Assembly (NCBI RefSeq): GCF_003439925.1
Contig: NZ_QQRR01000001.1
Span: 434,001-498,000 of the forward strand
Length of the DNA stretch: 64,000 bases
Reading direction: 5' to 3'
From: Haloprofundus halophilus
GTDB taxonomy: Archaea > Halobacteriota > Halobacteria > Halobacteriales > Haloferacaceae
In this document: piece by piece, positions 10,950 to 60,304 of the stretch
How the letters are laid out: each line of letters opens with the position of its first letter
Numbering within the stretch: position 1 is the first letter of the stretch
Made by a program: the position numbers and the translations under genes
Notes under the pieces: model-generated
The model's database searches: none
What the model was told of the DNA's origin: nothing
The model's input: the letters and a program-made list of their open reading frames with translations, nothing else

Positions 10950-11001
10950 GTCCCTTCCTGCCGCACCCTGGGGTAGAAGCCTTTCGGGTTTCGCCGCTCG
11001 C

Positions 11002-11096
11002 GGCGTCGGTACGTGTTCGTAGCGTCAGTACGGGTTCGCAGCGTCGGTACGGGTTCGTAGCGTCCGTACGGGTTCGTAGCGTCGATACGTGTTCGC
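11002..11096. repeat. Five tandem copies of a 19-bp unit
   Basis: Copies begin at 11002, 11021, 11040, 11059 and 11078, with consensus AGCGTCGGTACGGGTTCGT and one to four changes per copy. The array lies between two divergent genes (9312-10949 leftward, 11146 rightward), so it is in their shared upstream region. The unit length is not a multiple of three and no protein spans it. Confidence 0.85.
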
Positions 11097-11145
11097 AGCG
11101 AGGCGGTTCGCAACCGTCAACAGGCGCAACGACGTACCGCGTCGT

Positions 11146-16831: not shown

Positions 16832-16949
16832 ACCGGTGTAAAGCGAACGGAGTGAGAAGTAATTACATGCGAATTCTGATAATTTCGGCGACTGTCCCTC
16901 GGGTGCGTACTCCGGCGTACGGGGACGGTCTCGGCGGGTGACTCGTCGC

Positions 16950-17012
16950 GTCCAGTCCGTGAACAGCGTCGTCCAGTCCGTGAACAGCGTCGTCCAGTCC
17001 GTGAACGGCGTC
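16950..17012. repeat. Three tandem copies of a 21-bp unit
   Basis: Copies begin at 16950, 16971 and 16992; the unit contains CCAGTCCGTGAACAGCG and the third copy differs by one base. The array lies between the start of the sugar dehydrogenase gene and the end of the mutase gene. The unit is a multiple of three, but no supported gene crosses it. Confidence 0.85.
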
Positions 17013-17087
17013 GTCGAGGCTACGAGTAGGGTCACCGAGCCACGACACCGTCGCCCAGTTCGCGGACCGCGCCGTCGACACCCGCGC

Positions 17088-18905: not shown

Positions 18906-19451
18906 ATGGATTCGGAGCACACCCGGAGGCGGGTTCTGGAACTCGCCGGCGTCGGCACCGGCCTCGCGCTCGCAGGCTGTGTCGGCGGCGGCACCGACGC
19001 GCCGGCGTCGGAGGGCGGCGACGCGTCGTCGACGCCCGAGTCGACCGACTCGCCGACGGAGGCCGAAACCGAGACCGAGACGCAAACCGAGACTCCCGAC
19101 CCCACTATGAGTACCGTCTTTCACTTCACCGACGACGTATCGCACCAGGAACACGCGCTCGGAAACGTCAGCAACCTGCTCGCCGACGACACCGTCGACC
19201 TCGACGACGTCGTCCTCCTCGTCAACGGGTCGGGGTTCAAACTCGTCTACGAAGAGCAGACCGAACACGCCGAGAAACTGCAGGAACTTCAGGAACAGGG
19301 CGTGTCGATTCGCGCCTGCGAGAACACGATGGATCGGTTCAGCGCGACACAGGACGACCTCGTCGACGGCGTCGAGACGGTCCCCTCCGGCGTCGGCGAA
19401 CTGACGAAGCTACAGGCGGGCGAGGGCTACGCGTACATCAAGACGCCGTAG
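18906..19451 (+). CDS. Tat lipoprotein with DsrE-like domain
   Basis: 181 residues. The N-terminus [19 protein letters not shown] is a twin-arginine lipoprotein signal with the lipobox ending at the cysteine near residue 25. A T/E-rich linker follows, then a DsrE/F-like domain (about 70-181) with [35 protein letters not shown] and [14 protein letters not shown], including the single conserved cysteine. DsrE proteins usually bind sulfur in the cytoplasm; this one is anchored outside. It is divergent from the mutase gene. The function outside the cell is not known. Confidence 0.82.
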
Positions 19452-19471
19452 AAACCGGGGCGTTCGACTCT

Positions 19472-19539
19472 CCGTCGCCCCGTCGTCCGTTCAGTCGCCC
19501 CGTCGTCCGTTCAGTCGCCCCGTCGTCCGCTCAGTCGCC
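19472..19539. repeat. Tandem array of a 20-bp unit containing the stop codon of the next gene
   Basis: Full copies start at 19472, 19492 and 19512, followed by a partial copy at 19532 that runs into the coding end of the DUF4397 gene. The consensus is CAGTCGCCCCGTCGTCCGTT. The shared core TCAGTCGCC is the complement of the gene's last codons and stop (GGC GAC TGA at 19531-19539). The array therefore appears to have grown from the gene's 3' end. Confidence 0.8.
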
Positions 19540-20325
19540 GTCTTCGGCGAGTGTAACCTCGAACGGCGCGTTCGTCGGCGCGTCGCCCGGCGCGAGATAT
19601 CCCGTTCCGAACGCGGTGTAGACGCCCCGGTCGTCGAGCGTCACTTCGGTCGTGGTCACCGTGTCGCCGCCGTCGGCCCGCTGGACAGCCAGTCGATGGG
19701 TTCCGGCGGGGAGCGTCGCGGTCGCCGTTCGAGCGTAGCCGACGCCGTCGAACAGGGTCTCCTCGCCGTCGTCGCGGACGACCCGCAGCGCGTTGCTGTC
19801 GGGCGCGGCGTTGACGAACTGCAGGCGGGCGCTCCCCCGTTCCGGAAGCGAGAGGTCCTCGTCGAAGAGGCGGAATTCGACCGGTCTGTCGGTGTTCTCT
19901 CCGAGTTCGCCGAGGACGACACCGGTGTAGCTCCCGACCTCGAAGTCGATGGCGTCCTCGAAGAAGACCCGGTCGGGGTTGCCGGTCGCCACGAGGCTGA
20001 TGTCGGTCCGCTCGGCGCCGAGATACAGGTACTGGCTGATCTGTCGGAACGTCTCGTCTTTCAGCGCCGCGTCGCCGAAGACGACGATGTCGATGTTCGG
20101 CGCGTTCGGGACGGCGTGGACGACGCGGAGGTTCGCCCCGCCGTCGGTCGACGTCGGGCTCCGCGTCGGGGCGTCGGTGCCGGGCGGCGTCTCGGTTCCC
20201 GGTGTCGGTTCGGCGGTGGACGGCGGCATCTCGTCTTCGAAGAGCGTCCCGCCGCAACCGGCGAGCGCCGAGAGGAGGGCGACGCCGCTGGCGTGCAGGA
20301 ACCGTCGGCGACGTGAGTCGGGCAT
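19531..20325 (-). CDS. DUF4397 lipoprotein, Tat-type
   Basis: 264 residues. The signal SRRRRFLHASGVALLSALAGC is a twin-arginine lipoprotein signal with lipobox LAGC. A P/T-rich linker (about 32-62) leads into the DUF4397 domain: LRVVHAVPNAPNIDIVVFGD, YLYLGAERTDISLVATG, SARLQFVNAAPDSNALRVV and LPAGTHRLAVQ. It should be anchored on the outer face of the membrane as a beta-rich surface protein. The ligand is unknown. The stop codon is the seed of the tandem array just downstream. Confidence 0.85.
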   Translation of the reverse strand: MPDSRRRRFLHASGVALLSALAGCGGTLFEDEMPPSTAEPTPGTETPPGTDAPTRSPTSTDGGANLRVVHAVPNAPNIDIVVFGDAALKDETFRQISQYLYLGAERTDISLVATGNPDRVFFEDAIDFEVGSYTGVVLGELGENTDRPVEFRLFDEDLSLPERGSARLQFVNAAPDSNALRVVRDDGEETLFDGVGYARTATATLPAGTHRLAVQRADGGDTVTTTEVTLDDRGVYTAFGTGYLAPGDAPTNAPFEVTLAEDGD

Positions 20326-20408
20326 CGTCCGCTCAGTAGTTCTCCGAATATCTCAACGTTTCCCCCGTTATCAAGTAGTGAAATTGAACTGTACGCTGAG
20401 AGTACGAG

Positions 20409-29521: not shown

Positions 29522-29555
29522 CCGCTGGCGACGTCCGGCCGCTGGCGACGTCCGG
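29522..29555. repeat. Two tandem copies of a 17-bp unit
   Basis: CCGCTGGCGACGTCCGG occurs at 29522-29538 and again at 29539-29555 with no change, 44 bases after the stop of the DUF5797-type gene. It is a minimal member of the tandem-array class seen elsewhere in the window. Confidence 0.7.
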
Positions 29556-29613
29556 CCATACACACACCCCCTGCCGAAACGTTCATCCGAGCGCTCCCCC
29601 CTAACGCACCCCG

Positions 29614-31515
29614 ATGAGAGACGACGAGGGCGACGACGCCGACGAGTCGACTGCCGCGACGTCGGAAGGAAGCGGCCGAACGCCCGAACGCGACCGAGAC
29701 GGCGGCCCCGGCGCTCGCCCGGGGACGGTACACGTCGACGCGTTCGGCGCGGTCGGCGACGGCGACGCCGACGACGGTCCCGCGTTGCAGGCGGCACTCG
29801 ACGCCGCCGCCGACCGCGGCGGCGGAACCGTAACGCTGCCGCCCGGTACGTACCGCCACGAGCGCTCGCTGCTCTACGGTTCGAACCTCGTCGTCGACGG
29901 TCACGGCGCGACGCTCCTGTTCGACCCGCCGGACCCCGACGCGACGGCGCTCGTCCCGCGAAGCTACGGCGGCGGCGAACGGGTGAGACAGGTCGTCGTC
30001 GACGGACTGACCCTCGGTTCGGTCGACCCCGCGAAGGGGAACGGTATCGGCGTCGCCCACGCCGAAGACGTCACCGTCCGCGGCTGTCGGGGCGAGAACC
30101 TCCGCTGGCACCTCGTCGACGTGGCGGGCGGGAAAGACGTGCTCGTGCGGAACTGCTACGCGGTCGGTCTCCGGTCGGCCGCCTACCAGGCGGACAACCT
30201 CACCGAGCGCGGCGGCCTCGTCGTCGCCCCGCCCGGAGGCGGCGTCGAGAACGCCGCCGTCGACGGCTCCGCCAACGAGAACGTCGCCATCGTCAACAAC
30301 GTCGCCGAGGACTGCGCGCGCGGCGTGCACCTCCACCGCAGCGGCGGCCACGACCTCTCGGTCGACGGGAACAAGATCCGACGCTGCACCGACGTCGGCA
30401 TCCTCGGCGACGACGGCACCGACTGGCACGACGTACGCATCACCGGCAACATCGTCGAGGGAACGGAGACGTCGACCGGCATCCGCCTCGACGGCCGCTA
30501 CCGAAACATCTCCGTGGAGAACAACACCGTCAGGAACCACGGCGGCGACGGCATCACGGTTCACCCCGGGGGCCACGGAGCGGCGGGCGACGTCTCCGAC
30601 GGGCCCGACGAGTTCGAGGAGGCCGTCGCCGAGGGCGTCAGTGTCTCCGACAACACCATCGAGTGCGTCGGCGGTGCAGGTATCGCGCTCCGCCGGGCCT
30701 CGGGGGAAGTCGCCGACAACTACGTCTACGACGTGGGAATCGGCGGGAGTCGGCGTGACGGCTCGACCGAGGGCCGCGAAGACGGGAGCCTTCGAGGCCG
30801 TCCGATCCACGAACCGTCGGGCGTCGTCGTCGAGCGCGGCGACGGCGTCACCGTCACCGACAACGTCTGTCGCGCCGTCGCGGGCGTCGGGTTCGTCGTT
30901 CGCGGCGGCCGCAACGTCGCGGTCACGGCGAACGAACTGTTCGACTTCGAGGTCGGCGTGCTCGCCGTCTCCGACCCGACGCCGACCGCCCGAGTGCGGG
31001 TCGCGGCCAACACGCTCGAAGGCCGGGAGGGTTCGCAGTGCGGCATCCGTCTCCGCGGCGGCTTCGACCACCGCCTCGACGGGAACGACTGTCGACGGGT
31101 CGACCGCGGGGTCGAACTCCTCGGCGTCCGCCGCGTCTTCTTCCGCGACACCGACGTCGTCGGCGGAGGCGACGACGGGGACGACGGGGAGGTCGGCTAT
31201 CTCCTCGACGGCTGCGAGGAGCTCCGCTTCCGCGACAACGACGCCGACGGCTTCGCGCGGTCGACGGTTCTCACGGGGTCGACCGATATCGAGGGGCAGC
31301 TCCCACACGCCGACGTTCGCGTCGGCTCCGACTGTGCCGACGTGACGTTGACGTTCCCGGGCCGCGCGCCGCCGACCGAGGGACGCTTCGACGTCGGATG
31401 CCGCGTCCGCAACGTCGAACCGTCGCCCGGAGGCGCGATGGGTTGGGTCTGCGTCGACGGCGGCGACCCCGGTACGTGGCACCCCTTCGGCCGAATCGAC
31501 CACGACTCGGTCTGA
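29614..31515 (+). CDS. Right-handed parallel beta-helix protein
   Basis: 633 residues. After a disordered acidic N-terminus (about 1-35), a pectate-lyase-3-type cap appears: VHVDAFGAVGDGDADDGPALQAAL. The remainder has many beta-helix rungs with NxI/NxV units (VSVSDNTIECV, VTGNIVEGT, ISVENNTVRNH, VTVTDNVC). No Sec or Tat signal is visible, which is odd for a sugar-binding or lyase-like fold that normally works outside. A carbohydrate lyase or hydrolase activity is possible; catalytic residues cannot be assigned. The coding end is followed by a tandem array. Confidence 0.78.
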   Translation: MRDDEGDDADESTAATSEGSGRTPERDRDGGPGARPGTVHVDAFGAVGDGDADDGPALQAALDAAADRGGGTVTLPPGTYRHERSLLYGSNLVVDGHGATLLFDPPDPDATALVPRSYGGGERVRQVVVDGLTLGSVDPAKGNGIGVAHAEDVTVRGCRGENLRWHLVDVAGGKDVLVRNCYAVGLRSAAYQADNLTERGGLVVAPPGGGVENAAVDGSANENVAIVNNVAEDCARGVHLHRSGGHDLSVDGNKIRRCTDVGILGDDGTDWHDVRITGNIVEGTETSTGIRLDGRYRNISVENNTVRNHGGDGITVHPGGHGAAGDVSDGPDEFEEAVAEGVSVSDNTIECVGGAGIALRRASGEVADNYVYDVGIGGSRRDGSTEGREDGSLRGRPIHEPSGVVVERGDGVTVTDNVCRAVAGVGFVVRGGRNVAVTANELFDFEVGVLAVSDPTPTARVRVAANTLEGREGSQCGIRLRGGFDHRLDGNDCRRVDRGVELLGVRRVFFRDTDVVGGGDDGDDGEVGYLLDGCEELRFRDNDADGFARSTVLTGSTDIEGQLPHADVRVGSDCADVTLTFPGRAPPTEGRFDVGCRVRNVEPSPGGAMGWVCVDGGDPGTWHPFGRIDHDSV

Positions 31516-31522
31516 CGGGTCT

Positions 31523-31594
31523 CAGGAGTCGGGCGCGGACGGTTATCAGGAGTCGGGTGCGGACGGTTATCGGGAGTCGGGCGCGGACCGCTCG
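31523..31594. repeat. Tandem array of a 24-bp unit overlapping a gene's 3' end
   Basis: Two near-identical copies (31523-31546, 31547-31570; core CAGGAGTCGGGCGCGGAC) are followed by a third, diverged copy (31571-31594) that is the coding 3' end of the leftward DUF5787-type gene. The gene's stop TAA (31567-31569) lies in the second copy, and the same GTTAT block recurs in the first. As at 19472, the array duplicates last codons plus stop. Confidence 0.75.
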
Positions 31595-60060: not shown

Positions 60061-60150
60061 GCGTCCCGCCCGCCTCCAGCGTCCCGCCTGCCTCCAGCGT
60101 CTCGCCTGCCTCCCGCGTCCCGCCTGCCTCTAGCGTCTCGCCCGCCTCCC
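60061..60150. repeat. Five tandem copies of an 18-bp unit
   Basis: Copies begin at 60061, 60079, 60097, 60115 and 60133; consensus GCGTCCCGCCTGCCTCCA with a few changes. The region 59987-60304 (318 bases) otherwise has no supported gene; the unit is six codons long and encodes PASRLP-type peptides in one frame, but that frame has no other support. The promoter of the small gene at 60305 lies at its right end. Confidence 0.85.
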
Positions 60151-60304
60151 GCGCTCGGTCGCTGGCGCGAAAGTCCCGTCGTCGACCCGCAGGAGGCGAC
60201 TACCGGCGGGTCGGAGGAGAATATAAGGACGTAAGTGTGGTATTGAATGTTATTATTCCCTCCCTGAAAGCGTTAAGAAGGGTCGCTGGCTACCGTGGTC
60301 CAAG

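Follow-up and report, generated by a model that had tools for sequence, protein, structure and literature searches.

The stretch of DNA analysed here (the window) comprises 64,000 nucleotides from Haloprofundus halophilus. It carries two convergent lipoprotein genes, a DsrE-like gene on the plus strand (18906-19451; Pfam E 1.7e-8) and a DUF4397 gene on the minus strand (19531-20325; Pfam E 1.7e-24), separated by a gap of 79 bp. A tandem array sits in this gap and duplicates the end of the DUF4397 gene, which it enters by 9 bases; 22 bp separate it from the stop of the DsrE-like gene. Inspection of the sequence and TRF both place the array at 19474-19539 on the minus strand, with three copies of 20 bp followed by 6 bases (66 bp). 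The start given in the earlier note, 19472, was thus two bases too early. TRF reported a period of 20, 3.3 copies, 97% matches and a score of 125; of 50 copies of the window generated by a first-order Markov model, the best scored 70. This confirmed that the array is real and lies far above chance.

On the gene strand the array has the form ABABABA, where A is the 6-nt element GGCGAC and B is the 14-nt element TGA[G/A]CGGACGACGG. The complete run reads GAAGAC (GGCGAC TGAGCGGACGACGG) (GGCGAC TGAACGGACGACGG) (GGCGAC TGAACGGACGACGG) GGCGAC GGAGAG. The gene-proximal copy (19539-19520, minus strand; GGCGACTGAGCGGACGACGG) contains GGC GAC, the last two codons of the DUF4397 gene, and its real stop TGA (19533-19531, minus strand). 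The second and third copies (19519-19500 and 19499-19480, minus strand; both GGCGACTGAACGGACGACGG) are identical to each other, differ from the gene-proximal copy by one base (G to A), and carry their TGAs outside the gene. The array closes with a final A element without a stop (GGCGAC, 19479-19474, minus strand); slippage requires such a short direct repeat at the outer edge. The earlier note's description of three 20-bp copies, each holding the gene's own GGC GAC TGA ending, is therefore borne out by the sequence and by TRF.

The exact 22-base unit pattern was searched for in the whole genome. It occurred three times, always within the array, which rules out a dispersed element. A plasmid search with the locus returned four records with partial and distant matches, none covering 80%. 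Separately, the 13-mer ACTGAGCGGACGA (gene strand) occurs twice, at 19523-19535 in the gene-proximal copy and at 20325-20337 at the start of the DUF4397 gene, where it consists of the leader and the A of the ATG. Two congeners (G004 and G003) keep this leader version with a single change, and a third (G001) lacks it. Its presence at both ends of the gene is odd, but is probably due to chance.

A protein search found the DUF4397 gene in all five Haloprofundus genomes, and in each the protein ends in EDGD with a TGA stop (the last codon being GAT in G003). The array is present in only one of the five, that of the window; the four congeners (G001-G004) lack it. In the nearest relative, G004, the last codons are followed by TGAGCGG, exactly as in the gene-proximal copy. 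Beyond this the five species differ downstream of the stop, and an unexpanded ABA is not readable in the congeners. The space between the two genes turns over among the congeners. The DsrE-like neighbour lies close to the DUF4397 gene in G003, is separated from it by about 850 bp of other sequence in G004 (L045:19026-19876) and about 300 bp in G002 (L051:1165-1464), and is reduced to its start in G001 (L007). Six arrays of the window were compared with relatives and none was shared in the orthologous stretches read, some relatives being without some of the gaps. A seventh (29522-29557) was aligned to relatives, its gap itself falling outside that six-array comparison.

Very probably, the array is the product of slipped-strand copying between GGCGAC repeats, or of a comparable template jump, and was tolerated since the protein is unchanged. 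The ancestor would have carried two GGCGAC direct repeats 20 bp apart, one of which by chance formed the gene's final two codons. The stop would have been copied because it lay between these repeats. Judging from the A that the two outer copies share, the simplest order would be one duplication (ABA to ABABA), one G-to-A change and one further duplication (to ABABABA), all in the lineage of the window. Tolerance would follow from the gene-proximal copy, in which the reading frame closes where it did before. The array terminates in a partial copy equal to the short direct repeat A, as expected for a passage from ABA to ABABA. The suggestion that a slippage-type expansion took in the 3' end of the gene is thus supported, the proximal copy matching TGAGCGG of G004 and all four congeners being free of the array. 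For the replicative polymerases PolB and PolD of Pyrococcus, slippage in vitro is described when the template carries a hairpin and short direct repeats (PMC4134008).

Edge repeats of this kind were then looked for in 52 exact, not wholly coding arrays from all sampled genomes (30 of them from the window's genome), 23 of which stood apart from any further periodicity and are termed isolated. Most had them. A direct repeat of at least 4 nt extended past the whole copies in 18 of the 23 isolated exact arrays, against 2.4% expected without homology, though worn partial copies may have raised this figure.

The frequency of arrays over gene boundaries was examined with TRF (score at least 60, period 10-60) in the window and 40 stretches of 20 kb from the same genome, taken from contigs C1 and C2 only (864 kb). 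Genes were those of our own simple codon-usage caller, with gene ends unverified against annotation. The 160 arrays found comprised 67 that were wholly coding and 93 that were not. Periods of 63 of the 67 coding arrays were multiples of three, showing that selection visibly filters arrays. The 93 others contained a stop in 17 cases and a start in none, while 200 random placements gave 17.5 ± 3.5 and 19.1 ± 3.7, respectively. In the four congeners (1,200 kb) a stop was contained in 13 of 42 arrays and a start in none (null 6.1 ± 2.2 and 6.4 ± 2.3); the stop count was reached in 0 of 200 placements when starts were not barred. For 20 other genomes of the family (800 kb) the counts were 7 and 1 of 31 (null 3.2 and 3.7), a sample in which the caller performed poorly in several genomes (coding fraction 0.00 in G008, 0.04 in G011 and 0.33 in G005). 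Pooled over the window's genome and the 24 others, 37 of 166 arrays contained a stop and one contained a start. When starts were barred from the null, 31.4 ± 5.0 stops were expected (P 0.15; 60 placement rounds), so that the stop frequency is near random. Starts are nearly free of arrays; at stops arrays are tolerated. A scan such as the earlier note proposed did find other stop-containing arrays, but no more of them in the 864 kb of the window's genome than random placement gives.

The near-absence at starts extended to their surroundings. Within gaps, no array lay 25 nt or less from a start, where 21.6 ± 3.4 were expected. A duplication over a start would shift the promoter or add a start, which would account for this near-absence. 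If selection removes arrays over starts and the adjoining promoter zone, those that remain would seem to favour gene ends.

Besides slippage, the earlier note had suggested a repair process beginning at gene ends, perhaps tied to transcription termination. On such an account arrays would form preferentially just after stops, through termination of transcription, through RNA polymerases meeting head-on at convergent genes or through break repair. Under free placement, 2.2 and 3.1 arrays would start 1-10 and 11-25 nt past a stop; the numbers observed were 11 and 12, an excess of which part may stem from large gaps with genes missed by the caller. When the placement of each array was instead confined to the gap that contains it (63 of the 93 arrays, in gaps of 500 bp or less; 30 excluded), 38 lay over a stop or within 25 nt of one. 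The expectation was 21.5 ± 3.1 with a reach of 30 nt into genes, and with a reach of 15 nt it was 27.7 ± 2.9 when the 25 nt before starts were barred and 30.9 ± 2.7 (P 0.005) when 40 nt were barred. The ten usable congener arrays gave 10 against 7.1 (P 0.045), and against 9.9 with 40 nt barred (P 0.67). The process could also claim the congener stop count (13 of 42) obtained before starts were barred, and the congener densities of 2.87, 2.13 and 0.57 arrays per 10 kb in convergent, codirectional and divergent gaps (400 kb), which come from only 3, 8 and 1 arrays. Against it, the pooled stop count agrees with the null in which starts are barred. Convergent gaps of the window's genome are not enriched (7.03 per 10 kb, 15 arrays, vs 7.28 for codirectional gaps, 47 arrays), and gaps between divergent starts also hold arrays (22; 5.59 per 10 kb). 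Offsets into the gene, 17 in all, vary widely between -1 and -46, and no terminator-like site was found at 19300-19700. A process starting at gene ends is thus unlikely, and the proposal was not upheld. The modest excess just past stops may reflect a weak preference for gene ends or, just as well, selection that acts less strictly on 3' flanks than on promoters.

The array might also serve a function, as a set of backup stops or as a terminator or regulatory element for the convergent pair, given that each full copy contains a stop codon and that the GC-rich repeat strand is able to fold. Yet with a period of 20 none of the copied TGAs is in frame with the gene, and backup stops are ruled out; after read-through of the true stop, the next in-frame stop comes 31 codons further. 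The GC-rich stem-loop and T run of an intrinsic terminator were found on neither strand of 19300-19700, and Rfam at gathering thresholds gave no match to a known RNA in the window. The four congeners also have the DUF4397 gene without the array. A functional role appears highly improbable. That the copies are an assembly artefact and do not exist in the cell is scarcely credible, even though the species is represented by a single assembly. The copies are not all identical (one base differs), a usual sequencing read is longer than 66 bp, and strong arrays with varied units occur in 24 of the 41 sampled stretches. Slippage between the GGCGAC repeats, with tolerance of the outcome, remains our preferred reading.

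The window contains a second gene-end array, absent from the earlier note, at 31514-31588 (minus strand; 24-bp unit, about 3 copies), which lies over the end of a gene assigned to DUF5787 by Pfam and also reaches the stop of its convergent neighbour. The equivalent position in the nearest congener, G004, has a single copy. Here the protein ends in PDSR before the stop and in G004 in PDS, which marks the limit of neutrality for arrays over gene ends. Other intergenic arrays of the window lie farther from stops (10998-11100, 16949-17015 and 60061-60153). The first of these occupies a gap between divergent genes and is a 19/38-bp array, while the counterpart gap in a congener (L051:9680-9860) holds an unrelated 16-bp array, so that one gap has gained arrays independently.

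Arrays were abundant in this lineage. Strong arrays (score at least 90, at least 2.5 copies, not wholly coding) numbered 44 in 864 kb of the window's genome and 6 in 1,200 kb sampled from the four congeners, a roughly tenfold difference in density in a comparison where 20 of the 60 congener stretches were the region syntenic to the window and the own-genome stretches were taken at even steps. With arrays of any strength, not wholly coding, the figures were 93 and 42 for the same lengths. A measure that does not depend on the gene caller (period not a multiple of three) gave 24 strong arrays vs 3 in the congeners (P ~1e-6), and 60 vs 34 at any score (P ~2e-5), a ratio of just 2.45. The family sample contained 9 strong arrays in 800 kb. 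Five of these were in one genome, G013 (L135-L136), all non-coding, within 40 kb and with up to 9.6 copies; this may be a second, independent burst. In another observation, one 20-kb stretch (G000:C1:1140001-1160000; L039) was poorer in GC than the sampled genome as a whole (0.54 compared with 0.66), had just two called genes and is perhaps a foreign island.

We tentatively consider, at rather less than even confidence, that the lineage is a present or recent tandem-duplication mutator through a change in replication or Okazaki-fragment processing, with selection sparing harmless arrays, those over stops included. Domains of MutS, MutL, NucS, RNase HII and PolY were found with open frames in all five genomes of the genus. 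FEN1 was found in 30 of 30 family genomes, a set that includes the window's genome and G004 and excludes G001-G003. Loss of a repair or replication gene is thus rejected for the six families sought, as each is there with an open frame. The profile for the Rad50 hook had no match in any of the five genus genomes; it also missed the Haloferax volcanii control and is hence uninformative. Compared with windows of unit length, array units differed slightly in purine skew (0.117 vs 0.093; P 0.018), and also in GC skew (0.255 vs 0.214; P 0.03) and GC content (0.661 vs 0.609; P 0.002). A strong composition signature of arrays was therefore not upheld.

Tandem arrays of comparable form have been described elsewhere. 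Those of archaeal Borg elements have units of 18-36 nt, are described as recent and of independent origins, and lie between genes or in frame within them (PMC9879509). The arrays seen here resemble them in unit size, in having arisen recently and independently, in partial repeats at the edges and in that some start inside gene ends. By Borg-type measures (at least 3 units, at least 50 nt, partial repeat flanks) the present array has 3 units, 66 nt and an outer partial copy; its units are neither perfect nor A-enriched, one base differing and the mean unit GC being 0.66. Borg repeats are reported as perfect, A-rich and extrachromosomal (PMC9879509), whereas the Haloprofundus arrays are GC-rich like their genome, lie on a large contig and in many cases show wear (strong arrays average 89% matches). 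The ABA to ABABA insertions of rad27 yeast give the same product, in which the unique sequence flanked by two short direct repeats is doubled along with one of them (PMC5677150). There the reported cause is a flap-endonuclease defect, while here the archaeal FEN1 is present with an open frame. Like the prokaryotic satellites and minisatellites of PMC6749651, the arrays are short, scattered and plentiful in few species. The short-repeat satellites of Halobacteria are taken there to be mostly coding, with lengths in multiples of three, whereas many here are non-coding; the detection criteria differ. Among the matches listed (titles and starts of abstracts; in one search, the best 10 of 1,437), none dealt with haloarchaeal tandem arrays that are intergenic and lie over stop codons. 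The nearest published statement in these sources is that on Borgs (PMC9879509).

The array itself is ordinary, very probably a slippage product, and of an already known kind. It provides a clean example of tandem duplications that cross stops and hardly ever starts. Crossing a stop is tolerated because outward copying of the gene end keeps the protein intact. The possible burst of arrays in this lineage is the part worth following. If the tenfold excess holds in whole genomes, Haloprofundus would offer close relatives with high and low array loads in which a genetic cause could be sought.
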